64,000 bases of DNA from Sphaerisporangium krabiense (GTDB lineage Bacteria > Actinomycetota > Actinomycetes > Streptosporangiales > Streptosporangiaceae), in contig NZ_JACHBR010000001.1 of NCBI RefSeq assembly GCF_014200435.1, positions 620,001 through 684,000 of the forward strand. Direction: 5' to 3'. Shown in pieces: positions 4,304 to 18,315 of the stretch. Every line of letters starts with the position of its first letter. Positions within the stretch are counted from its first letter, which is position 1. The notes under the pieces were generated by a model. The model had not been told where the DNA came from and did no database searches. It saw only the letters and a program-made list of their open reading frames with translations. Position numbers and translations under genes: made by a program.

Positions 4304-5411
4304 TCGGTATCCACTTCTGGTCGCGCTCTCCGATGTACTCGCTGTCCGGGCGGATCAGGCGGTTGTCGGCGTGCTGCTCGATCACGTGCGCCGTCCAGCC
4401 CGACATCCGGCTGACCGAGAACACCGGAGTGAACAGGTCCGTCGGGATGCCGAGGTAGTGGTAGACCGTCGCGGCGTAGAAGTCGACGTTCGGGTACAGA
4501 CCCTTCTCCGCGAAGACGACCTCCTCCATCTCCTTCGACATCCGATAGTAGGTGTCGTCCCCGCTCGCCTCGCCCAACTCCTGCGACATCTTGCGCAGGT
4601 GCGTCGCGCGCGGGTCCTCGGTCTTGTAGACCCGGTGCCCGAAGCCCATGATCTTCTCGCCGCGCCCCAGCTTGTCGCGCACGGCCTGCGCGACGCCGTC
4701 CGCCGGGATGCCCTCCAGCGTGCGCATGACCTGCTCGTTGGCGCCGCCGTGCAGCGGCCCCTTCAGCGTGCCGATGGCCGCGACGATCGCCGAGTGCATG
4801 TCCGACAGCGTGGCCGCGCAGACCCGGGCCGCGAACGTCGAGGCGTTCATGGTGTGGTCGGCGTGCAGCACGAGGCAGGCGTCGAAGATCTCGACGGCCC
4901 TCGGGTCGGGCTCGCTGCCGGTGATCTGCAGCAGGAAGTTCGCCGCGATGCTCAGCGCGGGATCGGCGTCTCTCGGGGTGACGCCGGTGCGCGCGGCATG
5001 GTAGCGGGCGACGAGCAGGGGCTGCTGCGCCGTCAGGCGCGCCGCCTTGCGGCGGTTGGCGTCCTGCTCGTTGGAGTCCTTGTCGGGATCGTCCGCCGAA
5101 GCCAGCGAGACGAGCGTGCGCAAGGCCTCCATGGGCGCCTGTGTCTGGGCGATCTCGTCGATGTTGGCCTGGACCAGAGCTCCTAGCTCGCGCCCTCGCA
5201 CGAGTTCCGCTCCGTAGTCGGCGAGTTGCCGGCGTGTCGGAAGCGTTCCGTGCTGCAGTAGGTGCGCGGTCTCTTCGAAGCTCGTGCGCCCGGCTAGATC
5301 ATGGATGTCGTAGCCGCGGTAGAAGAGGCGACCGGCTCTGCCGTCGATGTCACTCAGCGCTGTGGACGCGGCGACGACATCGGCGAGACCTTTGGTGGGG
5401 TTGTCCGCCAT
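4290..5411 (-). CDS. citrate synthase (2-methylcitrate synthase-like)
   Basis: A 373-residue type-I citrate synthase that condenses oxaloacetate with acetyl-CoA, possibly also propionyl-CoA, since short actinobacterial enzymes of this branch are often bifunctional. Visible signatures are DGRAGRLFYRGYDI near the N-terminus, the histidine segment LKGPLHGGANEQ, the second histidine in MGFGHRVYKTEDPR, and the C-terminal RPDSEYIGERD CoA/substrate region. ATG 5411 fits the usual MADN-type start. The gene overlaps DUF3017 and is upstream of icd, so citrate and isocitrate steps of the TCA cycle are probably co-expressed. Sequence alone does not decide between citrate and methylcitrate synthase. Confidence 0.9.
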   Translation of the reverse strand: MADNPTKGLADVVAASTALSDIDGRAGRLFYRGYDIHDLAGRTSFEETAHLLQHGTLPTRRQLADYGAELVRGRELGALVQANIDEIAQTQAPMEALRTLVSLASADDPDKDSNEQDANRRKAARLTAQQPLLVARYHAARTGVTPRDADPALSIAANFLLQITGSEPDPRAVEIFDACLVLHADHTMNASTFAARVCAATLSDMHSAIVAAIGTLKGPLHGGANEQVMRTLEGIPADGVAQAVRDKLGRGEKIMGFGHRVYKTEDPRATHLRKMSQELGEASGDDTYYRMSKEMEEVVFAEKGLYPNVDFYAATVYHYLGIPTDLFTPVFSVSRMSGWTAHVIEQHADNRLIRPDSEYIGERDQKWIPIDER

Positions 5412-5593
5412 GTGTTGTTTCCTCCGCTTATCTTCGTCCGCAGTCTACCTGTGAGCAGGTAAAACCAGCCGAGGAGGTCCAGACCAATTTCTGCAGTGAT
5501 TCTCGTTATGGCAAACGAGATTCCCCAACCCCTCGTTTGGGTAAGCCGGAGCTGTAGCGGAAGTAACGGCGGGCTACCTGGGGAGGAACTGCC

Positions 5594-6241
5594 GTGGAGG
5601 GGCCGTTCATACGCGTCGAGGACACCGGCGAGGTCGTCCCGTTGCGCCCCGAAGTCACGACGATCGGCCGAGGCCGAGGCGTCGACGTCAGGCTGGCCGA
5701 TCCGAGCGTGTCACGGCTGCACGCCGAGTTCGTCCGCCGCGGACCATACCTGTATGTCGTTGACCTGGGCCTGTCCCGCAACGGCACCCGGGTGAACGGG
5801 AGGCCGATCGCCCGGAGGGTACTCGACGACGGTGACGTCGTCTCGTTCGGCGCCGCCCGGTGCAGGGTGGGCGGCGTGCCAAGGGAGGACTTCGCCCCCG
5901 AGGTCGAGCTGCGCCGGGCCGCCGCGCCCGAGCTCACCCGGCGCGAGGTCGACGTCCTCACGTCCCTGTGCCGTCCCGCGCTGTCGGACGAGGCGTTCGT
6001 CGCCCCTGCCACGGCGCGCGAGATCGCCGACGACCTCGTGGTGACCGAGGCGGCGGTCAAACAGCACCTGCTGCGGCTGTACCAGAAGTTCCGCATCCCG
6101 GAGGGCATCAACCGCCGAACCCGGCTGGCCAACGAGGTAGTAGCCCTCGGCCTGGTCCGCCCCACCCCGGTGGTCCCCCCGCAACGCACCGCCGGCCCCG
6201 GCGAGTCACCCCCGCAAACCGCGGGCCGCCGCGCCTCGTAG
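5594..6241 (+). CDS. FHA-domain protein with C-terminal helix-turn-helix-like region
   Basis: A 215-residue cytoplasmic protein. Residues about 20-92 form a forkhead-associated domain, with the phosphothreonine-binding pattern TIGRGRGVD, VSRLHAEF and LSRNGTRVNG. Residues about 110-190 look like a helix-turn-helix unit: an LTRREVDVL start resembling LuxR-type DNA-binding domains, then TAREIADDL and TEAAVKQHLLRLYQKF; the tail is Pro-rich. GTG 5594 is preceded by GGGGAGGAAC. It is divergent from citrate synthase and about 3 kb from the receptor kinase. It lacks the N-terminal ETTS phosphorylation motif of GarA, so it is not a GarA orthologue. A phosphorylation-dependent DNA-binding protein is a reasonable inference. 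Confidence 0.75.
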   Translation: MEGPFIRVEDTGEVVPLRPEVTTIGRGRGVDVRLADPSVSRLHAEFVRRGPYLYVVDLGLSRNGTRVNGRPIARRVLDDGDVVSFGAARCRVGGVPREDFAPEVELRRAAAPELTRREVDVLTSLCRPALSDEAFVAPATAREIADDLVVTEAAVKQHLLRLYQKFRIPEGINRRTRLANEVVALGLVRPTPVVPPQRTAGPGESPPQTAGRRAS

Positions 6242-6461
6242 CACGAGCGAACACGGCCGTCCGGGCGCGCCTCCGCGCCGGCCACCCGGACGCCCTGTTC
6301 CTTCGCTCGCTCGGCACGCGATGCTCATGCGTGGCGCACACCATCCACCGCGGACTGATGGCGGGAATAGCGACCCGCAGCGTGACAGGCCTGTCGCTTT
6401 CCGTCTCGGCCTGGCGGGGAAAGTCAGGTGAAGACGCAAGCAGAATTGCTAGCGTGAGGCT

Positions 6462-7061
6462 ATGACAGTCCTGGTCCGGAGCGAAACCATGACAGACCCA
6501 CAGCTTCCCACCTGGCTGACTCCCCCGCCCGAGGGGTTCTACGCCGAAGACCTCGATCACTTTCCGGATTTGCCCGCACACACAGAGTTGCTCGATGGAA
6601 GCTTGGTCTTCGTGAACCCCCAAGCTTCCTTCCACTCTCTGACCATCACGGTCCTGGAACTCGGCCTGCGGCGGCACGCGCCCTCGGGCTTTCGCGTGCG
6701 CCGCGAGATGAGCGTCGTCCTCGGGCCGCGGCAGAGGCCGGAGCCGGATCTCATCGTGATCAATGCTGACGCGGATCTCGGCCTCAACGTCACGGCGTAC
6801 CAGCCCGCCGATGTCCTCCTCGCGATCGAGGTGGTGAGCCCCGACTCGACGACCCGCGAGCGCAAGCCGCAACTCTACGCCGCAGCCGAGATCCCTCATT
6901 TCTGGCGGGTCGAGCAGAAGGACGGTCGTCCTACGGTGTACGTCTACGAACTTGACCCCGCCACCCGCTCGTACGCCCTCATGGGCATCCATCACGACAA
7001 GCTGCACCTCTCGTCCCCGTTCGAGATCGACATTGACCTCACCGAGGCAGAACGGCTCTGA
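6462..7061 (+). CDS. Uma2 family (DUF820) restriction-endonuclease-fold protein
   Basis: A 199-residue member of the Uma2/DUF820 family, which adopts the PD-(D/E)xK nuclease fold; biological role unknown. The expected acidic and basic residues are visible in order: Glu in HTELLDGSLV, Asp in RPEPDLIVI, Glu in LAIEVVSPDS and Lys in RERKPQLYAA, so the catalytic set appears intact. ATG 6462 is used here; a second ATG at 6489 (MTDPQL) is possible. It is a single gene preceded by about 220 bases without a gene, and its 3' end converges with the first SARP regulator. Such genes occur in many paralogues in actinomycetes and cyanobacteria. Confidence 0.85.
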   Translation: MTVLVRSETMTDPQLPTWLTPPPEGFYAEDLDHFPDLPAHTELLDGSLVFVNPQASFHSLTITVLELGLRRHAPSGFRVRREMSVVLGPRQRPEPDLIVINADADLGLNVTAYQPADVLLAIEVVSPDSTTRERKPQLYAAAEIPHFWRVEQKDGRPTVYVYELDPATRSYALMGIHHDKLHLSSPFEIDIDLTEAERL

Positions 7062-7087
7062 TTCCCGATCTCCCGTGGTCCAGTCGA

Positions 7088-10009
7088 TCAGGGGTTTCTG
7101 AGGAGGTCCCTCAGAAAAGCGGTCAGCTCCGGGAGGGACAGTTCGCGTCCCCGAGACGCCGCGGTTTCGTAGCGGTCGGGAGGGAGGGAGTCGCGGACGG
7201 CGGCGGCTTCGCGGGGGCCGTCCAAGGGGTCCATCAGTTCTGGGGAGAAGCCCACTCGGCGGCCTACCGCCTCTACGCCGCCCATCAGGATGGCGGCCTC
7301 CTGCGCCCGGCCGGTGAGCGTGAGGGCGTGGGCGGCGGTGTGGAGCAGGACCAGGCGGGAGGTCACGTCCTCGTGGCGGTCGAGGGCGTCGACGATGCCG
7401 GCGGCGATCTCCAGGGCTCGCCGGCCGTCGCCGCCGTCGCAGGCGGTCTTCATGCCCGCCCACGCCGAGGAGCCCGCGGCCCAGTCGTGCCCGCAGGAGT
7501 TCGCCGTCGCCACGGCCTCGGCCAGCACGACGGCCGCCCCGGGAAGGTCGCCGAGGACGCGGGCCAGCATCCCCTGCACCATCAGGGCCTCGGCCACCAG
7601 CCAGTCCTCCCCGGCGCGCCGGGCGAGGCCGACGGCGCTGCGGGCCAGCGCCGGGGCGTCGACGGGCACCCCGGCGAGCACGCCGAAGTGCGTCTGGTAA
7701 ACGCGGGCGGACGCCTCGACGACCGCGTCACCGGCCTCCCGGCCCTCCGCCTCCGCCAGCAGGACGGCCTCGTACGCCTCGCGCGGCCGGCCGGCGAGGT
7801 AGCTCAGACCGCTGACGGCGAGCCGGGCACGGCCCCGGACCCCGGGCTCGGCGTCCGGGGCCGCGGCGAAGGCCTTGTCCATCCAGGCCAGGCCCTCGGC
7901 GATGTGGCCCATGCGGTACCAGAACCAGTACAGCGCGCCGCCCAGCCGCAGCGCGTAGACCCCGTCGCCCTCCTCCAGCGCGGAGGCGAAGGCCGCGCGG
8001 AACTCGGGCTGCTCGCGGGTCAGCCGGGCCAGCAGCTCGGGGGCCTGCGGGCCGTGCAGCCGGCGCTCGGCGCTCTCGGCCCGCGCCAGCGCCCAGGCCC
8101 GGTGGCGGCGCCGGGTGCCCGCGAGGTCGGCCACGTCCAGCTCGCGCAGCGCGTACTGGCGCAGCGTCTCCAGCATCCGGTAGCGGCGCGGCGCGGTGCC
8201 GGGCTCGACGGTGACCAGGGACTTGCGGACCAGGGCCGACAGCGGGCGCAGGACCTGCGGCTGGCCGCCGACCGCGCCCGCGGAGTCCAGGTCGAACCCG
8301 GCGGCGAAGACGCCGAGCCGGTGGAACAGCCGCCGTTCCTCGGGTTCGAGGAGCTGGTGGCTCCAGGCGACGGCGGCCTCCAGCGCGCGGTGCCGCGCGG
8401 GCAGGTCGAGCGGGCCGTCGACCAGCACGTCGAAGCGGTGCTCCAGGGCGTCGGCGATCTGGCCGACCGACAGCACGCGGCACTGCGCGGCGGCCAGCTC
8501 GATGGCGAGCGGGATGCCGTCGAGGCCGGCGCACAGCACCGGGATCCGGTCCAGGTCGCCGGGGTCGGGGGACCAGGCGGGCAGCGCGGTGGCGACCCGG
8601 CTGCGGAACAGTTCGCTGCCGTCCCCGGCGGGGTCGAGCGGCGGCACCTCGTAGACCGCCTCCCCCTCCACGCCGAGCGCCTCGCGGCTGGTGGCCAGCA
8701 CGCGCAGGTCACGGCAGCGGCTCAGCAGGACGCCGATGAGCGGGGTGACCGCCTCCAGCAGGTGCTCGCAGTTGTCCAGGACCACCACAAGGCGGCGTCC
8801 GGCGAGCACGGCGGCCAGTTCTTCGGCGGAGGACGGCCCCGGAACCCCGAGGGCGGCGGCGACGGTGGCGGGCAGCAGGTCGGCGGAGGTCAGAGCGGCC
8901 AGTTCCACCATCCAGGGCCCGTCGGCGTCGCCGGTACGGCGCCTGGCGAGCTCCAGCGCCAGCCGCGTCTTGCCCACCCCGCCCGGGCCGGTCAGCGTGA
9001 CCAGCCGGTACTCGGCCAGCAGGCCCTCCACGGCCGTGATCTCGGCGGCGCGCCCCACGAAGCTGGACAGCGCGAAGGGCAGGTTTCCCGGCACCGGGCG
9101 GGCGGCGCCTCGGGCGCCCGTGGCGCCGGATGCTCCCCCGGCGTCCGGCGTCACCCCCGCCTCCTGTGTCCCCCCGCCCCGCTCGGCGCGCCTCGGCCCG
9201 GCGGCGCCCCCGAGGCGGGGAGGAGGGTCGAGGCGCGGGTCCTGGGTGAGCACCGCGGTCTCCAGGTCTCGGAGCGCGGGCCCCGGGTCGACGCCGAGCT
9301 CGTCGGCGAGCCGTCTGCGCGCCGCGCGCAGCGTGGCGGTGGCGTCGGCGCGCCGCCCCGACCGGTACAGCGCCAGGGTGAGCAGTTCCCAGCCGCGCTC
9401 CCGCAGCGGCTGCTCGGCCACCTGGGCCTCCAGCTCGCCGGCGGCCGCGGCGTGCCGGCCGAGGTCGATGGCGGCGGCCAGCCGGTCCTCCTGGGCGCCG
9501 GCCCGCAGGTCCTCCAGCCGCGCGGCCTCGGGCACCGCGAAGCCCGCCTCGGCGAAGTCGGCGTAGGCGGGGCCGCGCCACAGGCCGACCGCCTCGGTGA
9601 GCAGTTCCTCGGCCTCCCCCGGCCTGCCGCCGCCCAGGGCGCGCTTGCCGGCCACGGCCAGGTCGGCGAACCGCTCGGCGTCCACGGCGGCCGGGTCGGC
9701 CCGCAGCGCGTACCCGGGCCCCTCGCGGACGAGGAGCCGGGGCGGCGCGCCGGACGGGCGCCGGTGCTCCAGGGCCCGGCGCAGCTCGGAGACGTACGCG
9801 TGGAGGGTGGCCGGCGAGGGCGGGGGTGAGTCCTCCCACACCTCGGCCATGATCCGATCGGCGGAGACCATCCGCCCCCGGGCGATCAGCAGGACCGCCA
9901 GGACCGCCCGCTGCCGCGGGCCCCCCAGGCCGGCGGCCCGTCCCTCCACCTCGGCCCGGAGGGGGCCGAGCACTCCGAACCGCACAGCTGCGGGATCGAC
10001 CCCGGCCAT
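7088..10009 (-). CDS. AfsR-like SARP transcriptional regulator, copy 1
   Basis: A 973-residue large SARP regulator. In order: an OmpR-type winged helix (about 8-95) with LLIARGRMVSADRI, a bacterial transcriptional activator domain (about 108-253), a Gly/Ala-rich linker, an NB-ARC-like ATPase with GPGGVGKT (about 341-348) and VVVLDNCEHLL (about 408-418), and a C-terminal TPR-like helical region. I chose ATG 10009 because CGAGGAGG precedes it; an earlier GTG at 10093 would add 28 unconserved residues. An inverted repeat AGATC-N4-GATCT lies at 10033-10046, about 24 bases upstream of the start. It is closely similar along its whole length to the copy at 12457-15381 and lies downstream of the peptide/monooxygenase operon. 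It probably activates a nearby secondary-metabolite operon. Confidence 0.9.
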   Translation of the reverse strand: MAGVDPAAVRFGVLGPLRAEVEGRAAGLGGPRQRAVLAVLLIARGRMVSADRIMAEVWEDSPPPSPATLHAYVSELRRALEHRRPSGAPPRLLVREGPGYALRADPAAVDAERFADLAVAGKRALGGGRPGEAEELLTEAVGLWRGPAYADFAEAGFAVPEAARLEDLRAGAQEDRLAAAIDLGRHAAAAGELEAQVAEQPLRERGWELLTLALYRSGRRADATATLRAARRRLADELGVDPGPALRDLETAVLTQDPRLDPPPRLGGAAGPRRAERGGGTQEAGVTPDAGGASGATGARGAARPVPGNLPFALSSFVGRAAEITAVEGLLAEYRLVTLTGPGGVGKTRLALELARRRTGDADGPWMVELAALTSADLLPATVAAALGVPGPSSAEELAAVLAGRRLVVVLDNCEHLLEAVTPLIGVLLSRCRDLRVLATSREALGVEGEAVYEVPPLDPAGDGSELFRSRVATALPAWSPDPGDLDRIPVLCAGLDGIPLAIELAAAQCRVLSVGQIADALEHRFDVLVDGPLDLPARHRALEAAVAWSHQLLEPEERRLFHRLGVFAAGFDLDSAGAVGGQPQVLRPLSALVRKSLVTVEPGTAPRRYRMLETLRQYALRELDVADLAGTRRRHRAWALARAESAERRLHGPQAPELLARLTREQPEFRAAFASALEEGDGVYALRLGGALYWFWYRMGHIAEGLAWMDKAFAAAPDAEPGVRGRARLAVSGLSYLAGRPREAYEAVLLAEAEGREAGDAVVEASARVYQTHFGVLAGVPVDAPALARSAVGLARRAGEDWLVAEALMVQGMLARVLGDLPGAAVVLAEAVATANSCGHDWAAGSSAWAGMKTACDGGDGRRALEIAAGIVDALDRHEDVTSRLVLLHTAAHALTLTGRAQEAAILMGGVEAVGRRVGFSPELMDPLDGPREAAAVRDSLPPDRYETAASRGRELSLPELTAFLRDLLRNP

Positions 10010-10267
10010 CGGCCTCCTCGCGGCGCTCGTGGAGATCGTGAGATCTTCTGCGAGGGTAACCGAAGGGGCACGCCCCCAGAAGGGGTCGGCCACCGGACGG
10101 ATCGGGCTTCTGGCGGCGGGCCGGACCGAGACGTGCGTACGCGCGTTCCCCTTGGCGTCCTCGCACGTCCCGCCACGACCGGCCTCTCACTTCCCCCCTT
10201 GCCGGGACATCCGCAGGACGGCTCCCCCCTCGGCAACCGTCCTGCCCGATGCGTCACGGCCGTGGTC

Positions 10268-10624
10268 TCAGCCCGCGCAGGTGGCCTTGACGGAGACGTA
10301 CACGCGGAGGGCTCCCCCGTTGGTGGCGGTCACGGTGAGCTTGTCGCGGCTGAAGGCGTCGGACGTGGTGTCCAGGCTGGTGCCGACGGACACCGCGGGG
10401 CCGGCGGTGACGTTGATCGTGTCGGTCAGCATGGTGGGCGCGTACGACGGGCACATGACGAGGAACGAGCGGGTGGCGCCGGGCTCGACCCAGACCGCGT
10501 TGCCGGCGGTGGCCGTCCCCGCCGCGGAGGCCGGGAGGGCGGCGAGGGTCAGCCCGCCCGCGACGGTGGCGGCGGCCAGGGTGACGCCGGCGGCGCAGCG
10601 CTTGATCGTGACAGCGTTGATCAT
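10268..10624 (-). CDS. small secreted protein of unknown function
   Basis: A 118-residue protein with a Sec signal peptide: charged start MINAVTIKR, hydrophobic core to about residue 31 and a cleavage-like ASA-A. The mature part (about 84 residues) is Thr/Val/Ala-rich, with two Cys residues, one mid-chain (VMCPSY) and one at the end (ATCAG), which could form a disulphide. I do not recognise the family. ATG 10624 is supported by AAAGGA upstream; a longer in-frame reading lacks a ribosome site. It lies 79 bases downstream of the flavin monooxygenase on the same strand and may be the third gene of the peptide operon. Confidence 0.7.
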   Translation of the reverse strand: MINAVTIKRCAAGVTLAAATVAGGLTLAALPASAAGTATAGNAVWVEPGATRSFLVMCPSYAPTMLTDTINVTAGPAVSVGTSLDTTSDAFSRDKLTVTATNGGALRVYVSVKATCAG

Positions 10625-10703
10625 GACAGGGTCCTTTCGCTTCGGTCCCGTCCGGGACCATTCGGAATTTCGAGGTCTCCGCTTCGGATTCGGGCGGGGT
10701 GTT

Positions 10704-12089
10704 TCAGTGACCGGCCGGGACACGGTCCCGGGCCGGGGTCTTGTGGCGGGCGCGGCCGGGACGCGGCCGGAGCACCCGGGCGAGGACGCCCGGCGACAGC
10801 AGCCGCCGGGGCGGGGCCTGCAGGTTGGCGACGCTCAGGAAGGCGTGCCCGACCACCGGGTCCGCCTCCGCGGCCACGTGCAGGCGTGCGATGTAGTTGT
10901 TGAGCAGCTTGAGGCGCAGGGGACGCGGGCCCTCGACGGACGGGAAGCGCAGGTCGCCACCGACCGATATGTCCCAGGCCACGTCGATGATCCGCGCGGC
11001 GCGCCCGTGGAAGCGCCGGGCGAGCCCGCCGCGTCCGCCGGGCGCCGCCAGGCATTCGCGCAGCGCGACCGCCTCGCACGCGGCCACGGTCATGCCCTGC
11101 CCGTAGGTGGGGTTGAACTGGCACAGCGCGTCGCCGAACACCAGGTAGCCCTCGGGGAAGCGGCTCAGGCGCTCATAGCGGCGGCGGACGCTCACCGGGA
11201 TGCGCATCAGCCGGGGCTCCCCGAGCGGTTCCAGCCGTTCGAGGAGGCGGTGCAGGTCCGGGACCGGGACGCGGGCGGCGAACCGGTGGTAGCCGTCCGG
11301 GTCGGTGGGCGGGATGTCGTCGCCCATGCCGTACAGCGTGACCAGCCAGCGGTCGCCCTCGCCGCTCAGCGCGACCCCGCCCCGCGGGACGGCCGTGCTG
11401 TGCCCGACGATCATGGCGACGACGTCGGCGTCGCCCGGCCGGCGCCGGTACTCGCGGGAGACGTACGCCAGCCGCGAGTCGACGCGCTCCTCGGCCGCGG
11501 GCTCGTACCCCAGCCGGCGCAGCCACTCGGCCCCCCGGTTGCCGCGGCCGGTGGCGTTCACCACGAGGTCGGCCTCGATCTCCTCGACCTCCCCGGGCCG
11601 GCCGGGAAGCGCCACGCGCACCCCCGTGACCGCGCCGGGCCGTCCGGCGACCGGCTCGACCACCTCGCGGCGGTCCTGGATCACCACGCCGGGCAGGGCC
11701 TCGACCCGGGACCGCAGGTGGCGTTCGAGCAGCGGCCTGCTCACCGACAGGCCGCGCAGCCGCGACGGCGCCGGGCGCAGAAGCAGCCCGTCGTTGTACC
11801 AGCGGACGTCCCGCTGGATGTCGCACGGCACGGCGCCCGCGGCGACCAGGTCGTCGTGCAGGCCGGGGAACAGCTCGTCGAGGATCTCGCGGCCCTGGGA
11901 GAGCAGCCCGTGCGCGTGGTGGCCCTGCGGCACACTCCGCCTCGGGACGCCCTCCCCGGGCAGCGCGTCACGGTCGAGCACCGTGACGCGGTCGAAGGTC
12001 TCGCCGAGCACCCGGGCCGCGAGCAGCCCGCCGATCCCCGCTCCCACGACGACGGCGTGGCGCTCGGAGGCGCGGCCGCTGCCTGTCAC
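10704..12089 (-). CDS. FAD-dependent monooxygenase (epoxidase/hydroxylase-like)
   Basis: A 461-residue group-A flavoprotein oxidoreductase. The N-terminal dinucleotide motif VVVGAGIGGLLAARVL, an SRPLLERHLR segment after about 115 residues, ADLVVNATGR, and the second FAD motif YLVFGDALCQFNPTYGQGM identify the fold shared with aromatic hydroxylases and polyether epoxidases. The WxWxIP motif of tryptophan halogenases is absent. The start is GTG 12089; its GAGGACGCC ribosome site overlaps the stop codon of the upstream GDPSQW peptide gene (7 bases apart), so the two are almost certainly co-translated. Modification of the peptide, or of a small molecule bound by it, is inferred. The C-terminal 40 residues are Arg/Pro-rich. 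Confidence 0.85.
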   Translation of the reverse strand: MTGSGRASERHAVVVGAGIGGLLAARVLGETFDRVTVLDRDALPGEGVPRRSVPQGHHAHGLLSQGREILDELFPGLHDDLVAAGAVPCDIQRDVRWYNDGLLLRPAPSRLRGLSVSRPLLERHLRSRVEALPGVVIQDRREVVEPVAGRPGAVTGVRVALPGRPGEVEEIEADLVVNATGRGNRGAEWLRRLGYEPAAEERVDSRLAYVSREYRRRPGDADVVAMIVGHSTAVPRGGVALSGEGDRWLVTLYGMGDDIPPTDPDGYHRFAARVPVPDLHRLLERLEPLGEPRLMRIPVSVRRRYERLSRFPEGYLVFGDALCQFNPTYGQGMTVAACEAVALRECLAAPGGRGGLARRFHGRAARIIDVAWDISVGGDLRFPSVEGPRPLRLKLLNNYIARLHVAAEADPVVGHAFLSVANLQAPPRRLLSPGVLARVLRPRPGRARHKTPARDRVPAGH

Positions 12090-12096
12090 GGCGTCC

Positions 12097-12264
12097 TCAC
12101 CCCCACTGGGAGGGGTCGCCAGTGACGGACCACTGCGAAGGGTCGCCCGGCGCGGACCACTGGGACGGGTCGCCGCCGGCGGCCTGGGCGGCGGCGCCCG
12201 GGCCCAGCAGGGCTCCCAGGGCGATCCCGGCCACCGCGGCCGTGCGGATGATGCGCTTCCTCAC
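12097..12264 (-). CDS. 55-residue exported peptide with three GDPSQW repeats
   Basis: A short gene read as GTG AGG AAG CGC: charged N-terminus MRKRIIR, a hydrophobic stretch AVAGIALGALL and an AxA-type cleavage region, i.e. a complete Sec signal peptide of about 28 residues. The mature part of about 27 residues is three copies of GDPSQW separated by SAP and SVT, ending in Gly. GTG 12264 is fixed by an in-frame stop immediately upstream (TGA ACC GTG) and by GAGGTGA. The stop is 7 bases before the monooxygenase start. Repetition of one Trp-containing hexapeptide suggests a repeat-core precursor (RiPP-like) or a structural or signalling peptide; I know no family with this repeat. Confidence 0.8.
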   Translation of the reverse strand: MRKRIIRTAAVAGIALGALLGPGAAAQAAGGDPSQWSAPGDPSQWSVTGDPSQWG

Positions 12265-12367
12265 GGTTCACCTCGTTGTCTGAGTCGTCGCCGCCCTGTG
12301 CCGGGCGGCGTCTCGTTCACGACAACGAGCATGCGGACGGCCGCTTGGCGGCCGATGGGAACCGGCT

Positions 12368-12407
12368 TTCCCAGTGCTTCCCAGCGCTTCCCAGTGGATT
12401 CCAAGCG
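12368..12407 (-). promoter_or_regulatory. 10-bp-period direct repeats, putative SARP-binding site
   Basis: Four consecutive decamers begin at 12368, 12378, 12388 and 12398 (plus-strand TTCCCAGTGC, TTCCCAGCGC, TTCCCAGTGG and the weaker ATTCCAAGCG). On the minus strand this reads as CTGGGAA repeated once per helical turn, about 100-140 bases upstream of the GDPSQW peptide gene. SARP proteins bind short direct repeats with one-helical-turn spacing, and two SARP genes flank this operon. Use as an activator site is inferred. Confidence 0.5.
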
Positions 12408-12456
12408 CCCCCGGCGATGCTGGGAGGCACGACAGGGGCGCGCCGGGCGCGCGGGA

Positions 12457-15381
12457 TCAGAGGAGGGCGATCAGGTGGCCGAGCAGGGCGCCGACCTCCT
12501 GGCGGGACAGCGTGCGGCCCCGGGCGGCGTGGCGCGCGTACTCCTCGGGCGGCAGGGCCTCGCGCACGGCGGCGGCCTCGCGCGGGCCGTCCAGCGGGTC
12601 CATCAGCTCCGGCGAGACGCCGGCCCGCGTGCCGATGGCCTCCACGGCCCCCATGAGCACCGCCGCCTCCTCGGCCTTCCCGGCCAGCACGAGCGCGCGG
12701 GCGGCGCTGTGCACCGTCACCAGCCAGAAGGAGATGTCCCCGTAACGGTCCATAGTGGCGAGGATGCCCCCCGCGACGGCGAGCGCCCGTGCCCCGTCGC
12801 CCCGGTCGCAGGCGGTCTTCATCTCGCACCAGGCGGCCCCGTCGGCGGCCCAGTCGTGGCCGCTGGCGCGGGCCGCGGCGATCGCCCGGCGGAACACCGC
12901 CTCGGCGGCGGGCAGGTCTCCGAGGGCCCGCAGGACCATGCCCTGCACCATGAGCGTCTCGGCCTCCACCCAGTCCTGCCCGGTGCGCCGGGCCGACCGG
13001 ACGCCCTCCTCGGCGAGCGCGGCGCCGTCGCCGGGCCCCCGGGTGAGCACGCCGAGGTAGGCGGTGTACGCGATCGCGAGCGACTCGGTCACCGGGTCGC
13101 CGGCCGCACGGGCCTCCTCCACCGCCACGCGGGCGGCCTGGTGCGCCTCGTCCGTACGCCCGGCCACATAGCACAGTGCCGCCACGGCGAACCGGGCCCG
13201 CGCGCGGACGTCGGCGGCGGCGTCCGGGGCCGCGGCGAACGCCTCGGACAGCCAGGCCAGGCCCTCCCCCACGTATCCCATGCGGAACCAGAACCAGAAG
13301 AGCGCGCCGCCCAGCCGCAGGGCGTACTCGCCGTCCCCGAGTTCCAGGGCCGAGGCGAAGGCGGCGCGGAACTCCGCCTGGTCGCGTCCGAGCCCCTGCA
13401 GCAACGCCACCGCCTGCGGGCCGCGCAGGTGGCGTTCGACGTTCTCGGCCCGGGCCAGCGCCCAGGCGCGGTGGCGTTCCCGGGCGGCGTCGTGCTCCTC
13501 CGGCGGCAGCGCGGCGACGGCGTAGTAGCGCAGCGTCTCCAGCATCCGGTAGCGACGCGGCGCCGTGCCGGGTTCCACGGTGACCAGGGACTTGCGGACC
13601 AACGCCGACAGCGGGCCCAGCACGGGGGCGATCCCGCCGACCGCGGCGGCCGCCTCCAGGTCGAAGCCGCCTTCGAGCACGCCGAGCCGGTGGAAGAGGC
13701 GGCGTTCGGCCGGCTGGAGGAGCTGGTCGCTCCAGGCGATGGTGTCCACCAGGGTGCGGTGGCGGTCGGGCCGCCCCGCGGGCCCGGCGACCAGCAGGGT
13801 GAAGCGGTCCTTCAGCGCGTCCGCGATCTGGTCCAGGGACAGCGTGCGGCACTGCGCGGCGGCGAGCTCGATGGCCAGCGGGTTCCCGTCGAGCCGCGCG
13901 CACACGGTTCTGATCGTCTCCCGGTCGCCGGCCTCGGGGATCCCGCCGGGCAGCGCGGCGGCGGCCCGGCGCAGGAAGAGTTCCGTTCCTTCGGTGGCCG
14001 CGTCCAGGGGCGGCACGTCGTAGACGGCCTCCCCGGTGATGCCGAGTGACTCGCGGCTGGTGCACAGGACGCGCACGCCGCCGCAGCGGGCCAGCAGGGT
14101 GTGGGCCAGGTGGGCGGCGTGGACCAGCAGGTGCTCGCAGTTGTCCAGGACGAGGAGCGTACGGCGGCCGGCCAGCATGCCGGCGAGCTGCTCGGGGGAA
14201 CCGGCGGAGGGCAGTCCGAGGGCCGCGGCGACGGTGGGGGTGAGCAGTTCGGGAGCGTGCAGCCCCGCCATCTCCACCAGCCACGGCCCGTCGGCGTCGG
14301 CACGGGCGCGGGCCGCCTCCAGGGCTAATCGGGTCTTGCCGGCCCCGCCGGGCCCGGTGAGCGTGACCAGCCGGTGCGTGTCCAGGTACGCGCCGACGGC
14401 GGCCAGGTCCCGGGTGCGCCCGACGAAGCTCGACAGGGCGAACGGCAGGTTCCCCTGGCCGGGCGCGCCCCCGGCGGCCTGTCCGGCCGTACCGCCGGAG
14501 GCCGGGCGCTCCGGCCCCGTCACGGGCGCGCCGGCGCCCGCGGGTCCGAGGTCCGGACGGGGGCCGGCCTCGGCCGCAGGGCTCGTTCGCCGCGGCGCCG
14601 CCGGGCTCAGCGCCGGGTCCTGGGCGAGGATGGCCTCCTCCAGGTCGCGCAGGCCGCGGCCCGGGTCGATGCCGAGCTCGTCGGACAGCCGCCTGCGCAC
14701 CGCGCGCAGGGCGGCGAGCGCGTCGCCCTGCCGTCCGGACCGGTACAGCGCCAGGGCCAGCAGTTCCCAGCCGCGCTCGCGCAGCGGCTGCTCGGCGACC
14801 AACGCCTCCAGCTCGCCGACGGCGGCGGCGTGCCGCCCGGCGGCGATGATCGCGGCGAGCCGGTCCTCGTGGACGGCGGCCCGCAGGTTCTCCAGCCGCG
14901 TAGCGTCGGGGGTGGCGAAGGCGGCGCCGCCGAAGTCGGCGTAGGCGGGCCCCCGCCACAGCGCGAGCGCCTGCCCGAGCAGGTCGGCGGCCCGTTCGGG
15001 ATCGCCGCCTTCCAGCTCGCGCCGGCCGCGCGCGGCCAGGTCGGCGAAGCGTTCGGCGTCGACGGCGGTGGGGGCGGCGCGCAGCGCGTACCCGGGCCCG
15101 TCACGGACCAGCAGGCTGGGCGGCGCGCCGGGGGTCCGTCCCGGCTCCAGCGCGCGGCGCAGATCGGCGACGTACCCGTGCAGGGTGGTCGGCGAGGGCT
15201 GCCGGGAGTCGCTCCACACGTCGGACAGGATCCGGTCGGCCGAGACGATCCTGCCCCGCGCGATCAGCAGCAACGCCAGCACCGCCCGCTGCCGCGGCCC
15301 GCCGAGCCCCGCCGGCCGGCCGCCCACCTCCGCCCGGAGCGTTCCCAGTACCCCGAACCGCACGTCCTCGGCGACGCTCAC
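12457..15381 (-). CDS. AfsR-like SARP transcriptional regulator, copy 2
   Basis: A 974-residue paralogue of the regulator at 7088-10009 with the same domain order: winged helix, activator domain, NB-ARC-like ATPase with GPGGAGKT and LLVLDNCEHLL, and TPR-like C-terminus. Many stretches are identical, for example in AVDAERFADLA and QPLRERGWELL. GTG 15381 (MSVAEDVRFG) is chosen because CAGGGAGG precedes it and it aligns with copy 1; upstream residues are unconserved. A perfect inverted repeat GACGAT-N6-ATCGTC lies at 15406-15423. The gene is about 190 bases upstream of the GDPSQW peptide operon in the same direction, but the repeat array in that gap suggests a separate promoter there. Confidence 0.9.
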   Translation of the reverse strand: MSVAEDVRFGVLGTLRAEVGGRPAGLGGPRQRAVLALLLIARGRIVSADRILSDVWSDSRQPSPTTLHGYVADLRRALEPGRTPGAPPSLLVRDGPGYALRAAPTAVDAERFADLAARGRRELEGGDPERAADLLGQALALWRGPAYADFGGAAFATPDATRLENLRAAVHEDRLAAIIAAGRHAAAVGELEALVAEQPLRERGWELLALALYRSGRQGDALAALRAVRRRLSDELGIDPGRGLRDLEEAILAQDPALSPAAPRRTSPAAEAGPRPDLGPAGAGAPVTGPERPASGGTAGQAAGGAPGQGNLPFALSSFVGRTRDLAAVGAYLDTHRLVTLTGPGGAGKTRLALEAARARADADGPWLVEMAGLHAPELLTPTVAAALGLPSAGSPEQLAGMLAGRRTLLVLDNCEHLLVHAAHLAHTLLARCGGVRVLCTSRESLGITGEAVYDVPPLDAATEGTELFLRRAAAALPGGIPEAGDRETIRTVCARLDGNPLAIELAAAQCRTLSLDQIADALKDRFTLLVAGPAGRPDRHRTLVDTIAWSDQLLQPAERRLFHRLGVLEGGFDLEAAAAVGGIAPVLGPLSALVRKSLVTVEPGTAPRRYRMLETLRYYAVAALPPEEHDAARERHRAWALARAENVERHLRGPQAVALLQGLGRDQAEFRAAFASALELGDGEYALRLGGALFWFWFRMGYVGEGLAWLSEAFAAAPDAAADVRARARFAVAALCYVAGRTDEAHQAARVAVEEARAAGDPVTESLAIAYTAYLGVLTRGPGDGAALAEEGVRSARRTGQDWVEAETLMVQGMVLRALGDLPAAEAVFRRAIAAARASGHDWAADGAAWCEMKTACDRGDGARALAVAGGILATMDRYGDISFWLVTVHSAARALVLAGKAEEAAVLMGAVEAIGTRAGVSPELMDPLDGPREAAAVREALPPEEYARHAARGRTLSRQEVGALLGHLIALL

Positions 15382-15526
15382 CGCAGCCTCCCTGATGCCC
15401 GCCGTGACGATATCCGAATCGTCTACGTCTGCGAAGAGCCGAGTTCGGACGTGCGTCCGGCGCCGTTCGGGAGGCGTCCGCCGGACCGGCGGCACAGGGA
15501 TAGGGGCGGACGGCTTCGCGGGGCCT

Positions 15527-15554
15527 CCGCTCGGTGGCGTACGCCACCGAGCGG
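15527..15554. terminator. 28-bp perfect palindrome, probable terminator
   Basis: A perfect 28-bp palindrome (half-site CCGCTCGGTGGCGT) is centred at 15540/15541, about 65 bases beyond the multicopper oxidase stop and about 145 bases upstream of the second SARP start. A second, weaker hairpin (CCTCCGG paired with CCGGAGG) lies at about 15564-15586. As RNA it would form a 14-bp stem with almost no loop; as DNA it could be a dimeric operator. I favour a terminator, with moderate confidence. Confidence 0.45.
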
Positions 15555-15617
15555 GTCGTCTCACCTCCGGCCGACGTCACCGGAGGCGGGCGCGACGACC
15601 ACCGCCGATCGAGCGGA

Positions 15618-17078
15618 TCAGGGGACGACCTCCATCTGGGCCATCATGCCGAGGGACGAGTGCTCCAGATAGTGGCAGTGGTACACGTACCGGCCCAGGT
15701 AGTTGCGGAACGTCGCCTGGACGCGCACGGTCTCGTTGGGCGGGAGCTGGATCGTGTCCTTGAGCCCCGCGTCCCACGGCCGCGGCGGGGCCCCGTTCCG
15801 GTCCAGCACCCGGAACTGCACCAGGTGCATGTGGAAGGTGTGCTCGATGCCCTGGTCGCTGTCGCCGTTGGTCAGGGTCCAGATCTCCGTGTCGCCGCGC
15901 TTGATCCGGAAGTCCACCCGGTTCGGGTCGAACTGCTTGTCGTTCACCAGCCCGAAGACGTCGGTCTCGGTGTACCCGAAGCGCATCGACACCTCCCGCC
16001 GCACCGTCGCCGCCGGCATCGGGGGCAGCGGCCTGAGCACGTCGGGCACGCGGCTGTCGTCCCACGCCTGCCGCACCACGTCGAACCTGAGCACGGGGGC
16101 GCCACTGGCGGCGTCGGTGAGGACGACCTGGGTGCCGACCGGGTAGCGCGCGAAGTCGACGACGATGTCCGCGCGCTGCGCCGAGCCGAGAACCAGCTCG
16201 GTCAGCGGCACGGGCGCGGGCAGCAGCCCTCCGTCGGACGCGATCTGCTGGAACTCCGCGCCGCCGAGGGTGAGCCGGAAGGTGTACTCGTTGGCCCCGT
16301 TGACGAGCCGGAACCGGTACTTGCGCGCCGCGACCGGGAAGTACGGCTGCGGCCTGCCGTTGGCCAGGATCGTTGTGCGATCGTAGGGGCTGAAGAAGAC
16401 CAGGCCGCCGTTCTCGTCGAACTGGGCGTTGCGCAGGAAGATCGGCACGTCGTAGGGCCCGTCGGGCAGGCGCAGGCGCCGCTCGGCCGGGTCGTCGATC
16501 ACGTACATGCCGTGCAGGCCGCGGTAGACGTGCTCGGCCTCCATGTGGTGGCTGTGGTCGTGGTACCACAGCGTGGTGCCCTGCTGGGCGTTCGGGTAGT
16601 CGTAGCTCCGGAAGCGCCCGGGGTCGATGGTCTCCATGGGGTGTCCGTCGCTGACCGCGGGCACGTGCGCGCCGTGCAGGTGCACGTTGGTCGGCCGGTC
16701 GAGCTGGTTGACGAACACGACCTTGGCCGGGCGGCCGGTCCGCGCGCGGATCGTCGGCCCGACGAACGTGCCGCCGTAGGTCAGCAGGGGGGTGGTGAGC
16801 CCGGGGAGGATCTCCAGGTTCGCCGGTTTGACGGCGATCTTGTAGAGGTCGTGGTCGGGTCCCGACCAGGCGGGCCGCAGCTCCTGCGGCACCGGCATCC
16901 GCACCGAGAACGGAGCCACCGCGGAGCGCGCCGCGGCCCTCGGGGCGCGCGGGATCAGGTCCTGCCTGCGCAGCGGCACCGTGTCGTCGGCGCCCTCGGC
17001 GGTGAGCCTGGAGAACGGCAGGACCATCGCACCACCGGTGATGGCGCCGAGCGCCAGTAATCGTCGCCGATTCAGCAT
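15618..17078 (-). CDS. Tat-exported multicopper oxidase
   Basis: A 486-residue three-cupredoxin-domain oxidase (CotA/bilirubin oxidase/phenoxazinone synthase-like). The N-terminus MLNRRRLLALG followed by a hydrophobic segment is a Tat signal. All copper motifs are present: HLHG, WYHDHSHH, HTFHMH near residue 400 and the C-terminal HCHYLEHSSLGMM with the type-1 axial Met. It would oxidise phenolic or similar substrates while reducing O2 to water. ATG 17078 is preceded by GGGGAAG. The gene is upstream of the second SARP regulator on the same strand, separated by a 28-bp palindrome. Membership of the peptide gene cluster is possible but not shown. Confidence 0.9.
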   Translation of the reverse strand: MLNRRRLLALGAITGGAMVLPFSRLTAEGADDTVPLRRQDLIPRAPRAAARSAVAPFSVRMPVPQELRPAWSGPDHDLYKIAVKPANLEILPGLTTPLLTYGGTFVGPTIRARTGRPAKVVFVNQLDRPTNVHLHGAHVPAVSDGHPMETIDPGRFRSYDYPNAQQGTTLWYHDHSHHMEAEHVYRGLHGMYVIDDPAERRLRLPDGPYDVPIFLRNAQFDENGGLVFFSPYDRTTILANGRPQPYFPVAARKYRFRLVNGANEYTFRLTLGGAEFQQIASDGGLLPAPVPLTELVLGSAQRADIVVDFARYPVGTQVVLTDAASGAPVLRFDVVRQAWDDSRVPDVLRPLPPMPAATVRREVSMRFGYTETDVFGLVNDKQFDPNRVDFRIKRGDTEIWTLTNGDSDQGIEHTFHMHLVQFRVLDRNGAPPRPWDAGLKDTIQLPPNETVRVQATFRNYLGRYVYHCHYLEHSSLGMMAQMEVVP

Positions 17079-17262
17079 CGATCTTCCCCCTATCAGATGA
17101 CGACCGGGCGGCGGCGCTCCCGGCCGCACGCCGGACCACGCCCAAGGGAATGCGCGTTAGGGAAGAATCTTGCATCGACGCAGGGCGGCGTCTTCTTTCA
17201 AAGTGCCTGACCGCTTCGGCGATCTGTCGCCGCACGTCGGTGCCCGGCGCCGGCCGTGCCGA

Positions 17263-17709
17263 TCAGATGGTGGACATCTGAAACCACACGACGTGGCCGT
17301 CCGGATCCGCGCGCCAGCCCCAGGCGCTGGCGAGCTGGCACACCAGCCAGAGCCCGCGCCCGCCCTCGGAGCTCTCCCCCACGTCCCTGTGGACGTACGG
17401 GTGCGCGCTCGCCCCCTCGTCGATCACGTCCACCTGGATGGCGCGGCCGTGGTCGGTCAGCACGACGGCGAGCCGCCCGTCCGGACGCCGGCCGGAGCCG
17501 GAGTACCGGATCGCGTTCGTCACCAGCTCGCTGACCATCAGCACCGCGTCGTCCGTCTCCTGGCAGCGGGTCGTGCGCAGGATCTCCCGCACGAACGCCC
17601 GCGCCAGCCCTACCGACGCCGCCCTGCCGGGAAGCTCCACCCGCCCCAGCAGATCCGCCGTCGCCATCACCCCGATCTCCGGCATCGCCGTCATCGCCCC
17701 GTCCTTCAT
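17263..17709 (-). CDS. RsbW-like ATP-binding regulatory protein
   Basis: A 148-residue single-domain GHKL ATPase of the anti-sigma-factor/serine kinase type common in actinomycetes. The N-box region is VSELVTNAIRYSGSG, the G1 box DVIDEG, and the G2 box GGRGLWLVCQLA. Such proteins usually bind sigma factors or anti-anti-sigma partners; none is encoded next to it. ATG 17709 (MKDGAM) has AGGGGGCAA upstream and is preferred to ATG 17733. An AT-richer stretch without genes follows upstream. Confidence 0.85.
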   Translation of the reverse strand: MKDGAMTAMPEIGVMATADLLGRVELPGRAASVGLARAFVREILRTTRCQETDDAVLMVSELVTNAIRYSGSGRRPDGRLAVVLTDHGRAIQVDVIDEGASAHPYVHRDVGESSEGGRGLWLVCQLASAWGWRADPDGHVVWFQMSTI

Positions 17710-18315
17710 TTGCCCCCTGGCGGACCGCGCCATGGTACGCGTGGCCTCGTACTTAGCATGGCATTCTTCATTGAATGGTGTAAATCACTTTGTTTGGCGG
17801 ATTCACCATCCCCAGGCGACACAAGGGGTCATATTCAAGATCATCAACGAGAATGCGAAAACGGGCCGGAGCTTAACGCGATAGGGGACCCCCCAAAGGG
17901 ACGCGTGAGCGCACGCACAAGGCGCATGCCCCACCAGTCCGCACCCACCCCGCCTGCGACACCCCGCGGGAGCCTCCCGGGCCCGTGGACCCACAGGCAG
18001 CCACCCCGAACCACGGAGAGATGACCCCCTAAGCCGCCCGCCAAACACCGAAATAAAGTCATCAATTGGACAGCGCATCCCCCTCGCCAACCCATACGGC
18101 TCTCGCCATACTGAGACGGCCGCCACTAACCCTCTCTATTACCGCAGAGCCCGATTTACCCATCTGGAACGGTACAAAAATTCTCGAACAGCTCGGATGC
18201 CGTCAAGTCCCAGATCGCGCACATCCTTCACCGCTATTGACGTTCCAATATGGAATGATCCGCCCCCCACCCCGAAAAAGCGTGAAGAACAACCGTTCTC
18301 ATCGACAGGAGCACA
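17710..18315. other. 606-base intergenic region, AT-richer than surroundings
   Basis: No gene is supported here. Overlapping reading frames on the minus strand around 17803-18126 have no ribosome site, no recognisable domain and poor codon use. The last 200 bases are comparatively AT-rich and probably hold the promoter of the beta-helix gene at 18316, with a 5' leader of uncertain length; I could not pick a convincing -35/-10 pair. Confidence 0.5.

Follow-up and report, generated by a model that had tools for sequence, protein, structure and literature searches.

A GDPSQW-repeat peptide gene beside an AfsR-like regulator in Sphaerisporangium krabiense, possibly encoding an exported signal

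The peptide gene and its neighbours

The stretch analyzed here (the window) comprises 64,000 nucleotides of Sphaerisporangium krabiense contig NZ_JACHBR010000001.1, positions 620,001 to 684,000, and carries a short gene for a repeat peptide within a set of five genes on the minus strand. In the order of transcription these are a large regulator, SARP_up (12457-15564; SARP, Streptomyces antibiotic regulatory protein), the peptide (12097-12264), a flavin adenine dinucleotide (FAD) monooxygenase of 461 residues (10704-12089), a small secreted-looking protein of 123 residues with no known family in Pfam or NCBIfam (10268-10639), and SARP_dn (7088-10093), a paralogous SARP-NOD-TPR regulator with 63% identity to SARP_up. 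Open reading frame (ORF) and pattern searches confirmed what an earlier note, made from the sequence alone, had described: a 55-codon gene with a signal-peptide-like start followed by exactly three GDPSQW units. The two flanking SARPs, with Pfam, and the small secreted-looking protein after the monooxygenase were likewise borne out.

The peptide gene starts with GTG and its predicted product reads MRKRIIRTAAVAGIALGALLGPGAAAQA / AGGDPSQWSAPGDPSQWSVTGDPSQWG, the slash marking a cleavage point placed by judgement. By inspection, residues 1-28 (12181-12264) resemble a signal peptide with cleavage guessed at AQA/A. The GDPSQW copies lie at 12157-12174, 12130-12147 and, at the C-terminus, 12103-12120. 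As first described, the stop codon is 7 nt from the GTG of the monooxygenase and is overlapped by a Shine-Dalgarno-like stretch, GGTGAGG. SARP_up is 1035 residues long as called; neighbourhood genes were taken from a self-made gene caller, with approximate start sites. It has the winged helix, BTAD, NOD and TPR-type C-terminus of the large AfsR-like SARPs, with Trans_reg_C and BTAD above the Pfam cut-off and the AAA/NB-ARC and TPR matches below it. The AfsR entry in the PDB matches residues 67-706 at an E-value of 7e-46.

Evidence for a real gene and for selection on the repeat

Comparison of sequences indicates that 12097-12264 (minus strand) is a real gene, because its repeat units differ mostly synonymously and orthologs occur in several genera. 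Within 12 compared peptide genes, pairwise codon differences between GDPSQW-type units were 43 synonymous and 8 nonsynonymous, whereas the possible single-base changes of one unit are 11 synonymous and 43 not. Across the 8.5 Mb of the genome, the DNA pattern for GDPSQW has no exact match other than these three units, and a reversed-pattern control gave none. A chance ORF is ruled out by the homologs, the uniqueness of the pattern and the synonymous bias. We also rejected the idea that the repeats are mere DNA operator repeats, since two distant loci described below (L090 and L091) spell the same words with other codons.

Across the eight peptide-bearing loci of the Streptosporangiaceae, the number of copies varies from two to four. 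The last copy shows 7 synonymous and no nonsynonymous pairwise differences and is thus unchanged at the protein level, and the first copy shows 53 and 12, respectively. All eight predicted proteins end in QW, QWG or QWV; the database relative P0005 ends differently. The last copy (12103-12120 and orthologs) hardly varies, synonymous positions included, and for this reason its DNA may have a second function. In addition, an 8-mer of the upstream repeats, CACTGGGA (12369-12376 and 12389-12396), recurs on the opposite strand in peptide repeats 3 and 1 (12104-12111 and 12158-12165). All four matches in the window fall in the peptide locus; 1.8 are expected in the window, and four or more were seen in 12 of 100 shuffles.

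An unnamed family of repeat peptides

The window peptide has no family in Pfam or NCBIfam. A single-sequence search returned 64 proteins at E<=1 and 28 at E<=1e-3, its own entry included; the named matches are from Sphaerisporangium, Planotetraspora and Nonomuraea. A profile of 20 members found at least 321 proteins at E<=0.01 among 8000 candidates scored, and a search with a member carrying only KVNEYEGQHR found 97 at E<=1e-3. In 196 family sequences compared, a GDPSQW-like unit follows the signal region in 171 and a VNEYEGQ-like unit in 157. Other recurrent words are KKGSFD (15), NFTKIE (14), KDPEFPVTP (13), KVTVVFL (7) and QDFHF (5); these counts are biased by the search seeds. The 20 aligned members had no match below E 0.001 in Pfam or NCBIfam (best 0.0014 and 0.0079), and none of the 5.39 million open-licence PubMed Central papers whose full text was searched mentions GDPSQW, NEYEGQH or KVNEYEGQHR. 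From these sequences the peptides form a large unnamed family with a predicted Sec-type start and conserved words that recur, GDPSQWG and KVNEYEGQHR among them, found in Actinomycetota, Chloroflexota and metagenomes. The earlier suggestion of an undescribed peptide system therefore holds, and a family of hundreds of exported-looking repeat peptides lacking a Pfam or NCBIfam model deserves a name. In one metagenomic precursor, P0124, basic-rich stretches flank the GDPSQWG and KVNEYEGQHR units in a manner that recalls processed prohormones.

Surveys by exact DNA pattern show the peptide gene to be rare. In the host family, at least 6 of 341 genomes have two GDPSQW units side by side, the pattern having missed the carriers G008 and G001. 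Four of 250 Micromonosporaceae-family genomes matched, all judged real. One of 247 Acidimicrobiia-class genomes (two of three pattern matches were dropped after the ORFs were read) and one of 251 Chloroflexota-phylum genomes (four of five matching genomes dropped likewise) proved to be real carriers. KVNEYEGQ occurred in one of ten genomes in the family of genome G365, namely G365 itself, and the VNEYEGQH pattern in none of 396 genomes of a phylum survey. Carriers with readable context belong to Actinomycetota and Chloroflexota. A mobile-element origin was considered and rejected: two exact patterns had no match in viral contigs, and in plasmids P0001 had no match, while P0042 had a single one at E 0.6.

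Orthologous loci in the Streptosporangiaceae

Ten orthologous loci, the window and the nine others designated L050 to L058, were compared using tblastn at 1e-10; the records L044-L046 and L048 duplicate L053, L055, L057 and L058 and were counted once. SARP_up is present upstream in all ten, the monooxygenase in nine, the peptide in eight, the small secreted-looking protein in seven and, within the stretches compared, SARP_dn in six. In all eight peptide-bearing loci SARP_up lies immediately upstream. L051 retains the open frame of SARP_up and the monooxygenase, with only an end remnant of the peptide left after an insertion between these two genes. L054 retains the SARP_up frame, has no peptide, and has the monooxygenase directly after the leader; L055 has the peptide and lacks the monooxygenase. 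Thus peptide and monooxygenase are separable in both directions, and the enzyme and the small secreted-looking protein appear to be separable passengers. The insert in L051 (4846-7590) bears a second copy of the C-terminal end of SARP_up, in a locus where the peptide has decayed.

Peptide loci in other lineages

Outside the Streptosporangiaceae, six peptide loci have readable context (L090, L091, L092, L093, L109 and L110). Three of them have an immediately adjacent regulator with BTAD and AAA/NB-ARC domains, in three different orientations. The peptide gene of Micromonospora sp. CB01531 (L093) is followed on the same strand, after 97 nt, by a BTAD-AAA regulator. That of Catellatospora sp. KI3 (L092) and a BTAD-NB-ARC-TPR regulator are divergent, with about 170 nt between them. 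In a metagenome-assembled genome (MAG) of the Acidimicrobiia (L091), the stop of the peptide gene overlaps the stop of a convergent BTAD-AAA regulator, and a second BTAD-AAA gene adjoins. Identity to the regulators of the window is 49% over 264 aa for L091, 34% over 646 aa for L092 and 42% over 290 aa for L093. The six carrier genomes contain 6 to 37 BTAD matches each, and the chance of three or more such adjacencies is 6.8e-6 under random placement, assuming independence and one gene per 1050 bp. Of all 14 peptide loci with readable context, 11 have a BTAD regulator next to the peptide, and the adjacent regulators are BTAD-ATPase proteins of about 940-1110 residues as called.

The other three loci have no adjacent BTAD gene. 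L109 and L110 are both of the Micromonosporaceae family. The peptide of L109 lies next to an M23 peptidase and about 2.4 kb from a LuxR-type AAA regulator; that of L110 lies next to a TIR protein (7968-9344). In L090, from an Anaerolineae MAG, a DUF4062-NACHT(-FGE) protein (4573-7419) and a CHAT-TPR protein (11502-14309) are located about 1 and 2.5 kb off. A general rule that large SARPs have such a peptide alongside finds no support. Among 41 large BTAD regulators at 40 loci in eight carrier genomes, one had a repeat-bearing, secreted-looking neighbour, the known G211 locus, and none of the other 40 did; these regulators were the best-scoring BTAD matches, not a random sample, and the crude secretion filter passed 12 short ORFs, the G211 positive included.

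Sequences ahead of the operon

The promoter region was scanned for direct repeats in the ten Streptosporangiaceae loci, two of them without peptide, at every start and at offsets of 9 to 13. The best mean match for the loci as a set was 7.3 of 11 positions at offset 11 (5 to 9 of 11 in each), a value reached by none of 300 column shuffles, whose maximum was 7.0. In the window this corresponds to two 11-bp direct repeats, CCCATCGGCCG-CCAAGCGGCCG, at 12338-12359. The afsS promoter bound by AfsR is described as having two 11-bp direct repeats that overlap the -35 region (PMC10936776), and we regard 12338-12359 as a candidate afs-box-like SARP operator. Further upstream, TGGGA(A)-type repeats with a spacing of 10 nt occupy 12368-12403. 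Similar TGGGA repeats, 10-11 nt apart and variable in number, occur in part of the loci and are missing from L053, L055 and L058. The consensus TGGGAA-N5-GGTTCCCA has no match in the window. No sigma-70 consensus promoter was found; CATGCT at 12328-12333, picked out by inspection of the alignments, is a possible -10 element.

Downstream of the direct repeats lies a conserved inverted repeat, CTCGTTGTC...GACAACGAG (12272-12329), with inner stem GCCGCC/GGCGGC, which places the ribosome site of the peptide in the 3' arm of a hairpin. Of the ten outer pairs, eight can form in all eight peptide loci and two in six of the eight, with almost no covariation. Folding energies gave z-scores from -3.29 to +0.16 in the six of eight loci folded with shuffles, and Rfam had no match in 6000-18000 of the window. 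The hairpin is possibly a translational gate or an operator. The RNA reading is uncertain, since the 5' arm would be missing from any transcript that begins immediately downstream of the -10-like element.

Possible roles of the peptide

In our view the peptide is best explained as the Sec-exported precursor of a signal, present in several copies, that works with the adjacent SARP-STAND regulator (BTAD-ATPase-TPR type; STAND, signal transduction ATPase with numerous domains). We advance this tentatively, giving it somewhat less than an even chance. The layout resembles a signalling pair because a short multi-copy peptide, a constant neighbour of the STAND/AfsR class and a SARP-type box are found together, and the signalling role that the earlier note had allowed as an alternative gains support. 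STAND proteins are described as switched by the binding of an inducer (PMC10936776). We infer export, trimming, uptake and binding of the peptide. The precursor would be exported and cut down to units of the GDPSQWG type, of which the C-terminal one would be essential, and an oligopeptide importer would bring the units back into the cell. They would then bind the C-terminal sensor of SARP_up, the proposed receptor, and of SARP_dn where present, releasing the STAND switch. Activated SARP would drive the peptide promoter via the direct repeats, giving positive feedback, and would also drive lineage-specific output genes, for example the epoxidase-like monooxygenase and the small secreted protein. 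In the passages of PMC10936776 consulted, the word "ligand" is absent and no switch of AfsR-like STAND regulators besides phosphorylation is named. A genetically encoded ligand beside its regulator would make AfsR-like switching directly testable and might offer a handle on silent antibiotic clusters. Signals in Actinomycetota are typically small molecules, according to PMC10075063.

Several observations weigh against this proposal. L051 and L054 keep the SARP_up frame without an intact peptide, and L090, L109 and L110 have the peptide without an adjacent BTAD gene. The TPR matches of SARP_up are weak (best 5e-5, below cut-off), and among the adjacent regulators of L091, L092 and L093 only that of L092 has a convincing TPR match. 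The six outside loci are not fully independent, as the peptides of L092, L109 and L110 are alike. Moreover, the words are nearly invariant across phyla, whereas RRNPP pheromones are private. Finally, AfsR is described as controlled by Ser/Thr phosphorylation (PMC6988585, PMC10936776), and therefore a peptide inducer is not required.

In the main rival reading the peptide is itself the output: under SARP control, it would be secreted to act extracellularly (as a surface, adhesive, antimicrobial or public-good product), and the regulator would only switch it on. We consider this a serious possibility, though one on the lower side of even. The 11-bp direct-repeat box, the three loci lacking an adjacent BTAD regulator and the secreted-looking neighbour in seven of the ten orthologous loci all fit such a role; words alike across phyla would be expected of a structural or binding motif, and phosphorylation could do the switching. 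However, the regulator is more constant than any other gene, the association extends to non-orthologous BTAD regulators, and very short units at the C-terminus, in several copies, are typical of signals. It is quite improbable, we think, that the peptide is a self-marker or trigger in an immune-like network of STAND, TPR, CHAT and TIR proteins in filamentous bacteria, with the SARP-STAND pair as one branch. The CHAT-TPR, DUF4062-NACHT-FGE, TIR and LuxR-AAA proteins near the peptide in the loci without BTAD, and the readable carriers in both Actinomycetota and Chloroflexota, are consistent with it. Against this, STAND/CHAT/TIR-type genes are common in these phyla, the distances in L090 and L109 are 1-2.5 kb, and PADLOC gave no match for four of seven proteins scanned and weak ones for the other three. 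A term search in one paper on bacterial conflict systems (PMC7159879) found no mention of BTAD or of short or secreted peptides.

The earlier note had preferred a repeat-core precursor of a ribosomally synthesized and post-translationally modified peptide (RiPP), its Trp or Pro oxidized by the adjacent flavin monooxygenase. This is now highly improbable. The two genes are closely spaced and probably translationally coupled, and the expectation that they would stand together in related genomes held for seven of the eight Streptosporangiaceae peptide loci. It failed beyond them: none of the six outside peptide loci has a blastp match to the enzyme at 1e-4, and none of 11 distant loci of monooxygenase homologs (11 of 43 further matches) has a GDPSQW ORF. 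L093 does have a FAD_binding_3 protein about 3.5 kb downstream of the peptide, which would suit a modified peptide, but it is a different protein that likewise lacks a match to the window's enzyme. In favour of a modified Trp, the monooxygenase is weakly similar (32.8 bits against a cut-off of 240) to QhpG, a flavoenzyme that hydroxylates a protein Trp. Among proteins of solved structure, however, its nearest relatives are MonCI and Lsd18/LasC, which are polyene epoxidases (E about 5e-55, residues 10-437 of 461). A RiPP system would have a precursor made up of leader and core, and in the same locus an enzyme dedicated to modifying it. Here the peptide begins instead with what resembles a signal peptide, and it and the enzyme are separable, each occurring without the other at orthologous sites. 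Separable loss and the enzyme family led us to reject tailoring by this monooxygenase.

Relation to known systems

The RRNPP systems of Bacillota (Rap-Phr, PlcR-PapR, Rgg, AimR-AimP) share with the present locus the pairing of two adjacent genes, one for a short propeptide of Sec type and one for a cytosolic regulator whose sensor is TPR-type. In RRNPP systems the mature peptide is bound by the TPR domain following import. They are defined by a propeptide of 10-100 aa with a Sec signal by the regulator gene and a receptor of 250-500 aa that matches peptide-binding TPR models, as set out in PMC10075063. The window peptide, with 55 residues, a signal peptide judged by eye and the adjacency already described, agrees with the former. 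Its regulators are SARP-NOD-TPR activators of about 1000 residues, twice as large and of another class, so the system is not RRNPP by definition. It differs as well in its multi-copy, multi-word precursors, in its occurrence in Actinomycetota and Chloroflexota, and in words that are alike across phyla.

AfsR-AfsS of Streptomyces likewise joins a SARP-NOD-TPR activator to a small-protein gene with two 11-bp direct repeats in its promoter. According to PMC6988585, AfsS, a protein of 63 aa, acts on the promoters of regulatory genes; by that description the present peptide is set apart by its signal-peptide-like start and GDPSQW units. The relationship of the monooxygenase to MonCI and Lsd18 extends over nearly its full length. 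Those enzymes, as described, epoxidize polyene polyketides (PMC10560226; PMC12144862), but no polyketide synthase or polyether cluster was seen in the window when the gene call was read by eye. In outline the precursor also resembles polyproteins of the neuropeptide and yeast alpha-factor type, in which a signal peptide is followed by several short conserved units; the window peptide is bacterial and unrelated to these.

A broader idea, which we think unlikely, is that a widespread peptide language exists in Actinomycetota and Chloroflexota, in which exported precursors repeat and mix a few shared words (GDPSQWG, KVNEYEGQHR, KKGSFD, NFTKIEF, KDPEFPVTP), much as neuropeptide precursors do, and in which these words are read by SARP-STAND-TPR and other STAND-type sensors. 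If true, it would account for the missing inducer of some AfsR-like regulators.

Other genes in the window

The flanking SARPs had been taken in the earlier note as typical of secondary-metabolite clusters. No such setting was seen; the gene call points to genes for isocitrate dehydrogenase and citrate synthase, and to sucCD, purine and UvrD-type genes, in the surroundings, with products guessed by eye from N-terminal stretches and a profile search for six proteins only. Upstream of SARP_up, on the same strand, is a multicopper oxidase gene (15618-17129), which occupies the same place in L050, where it is 94-95% identical.

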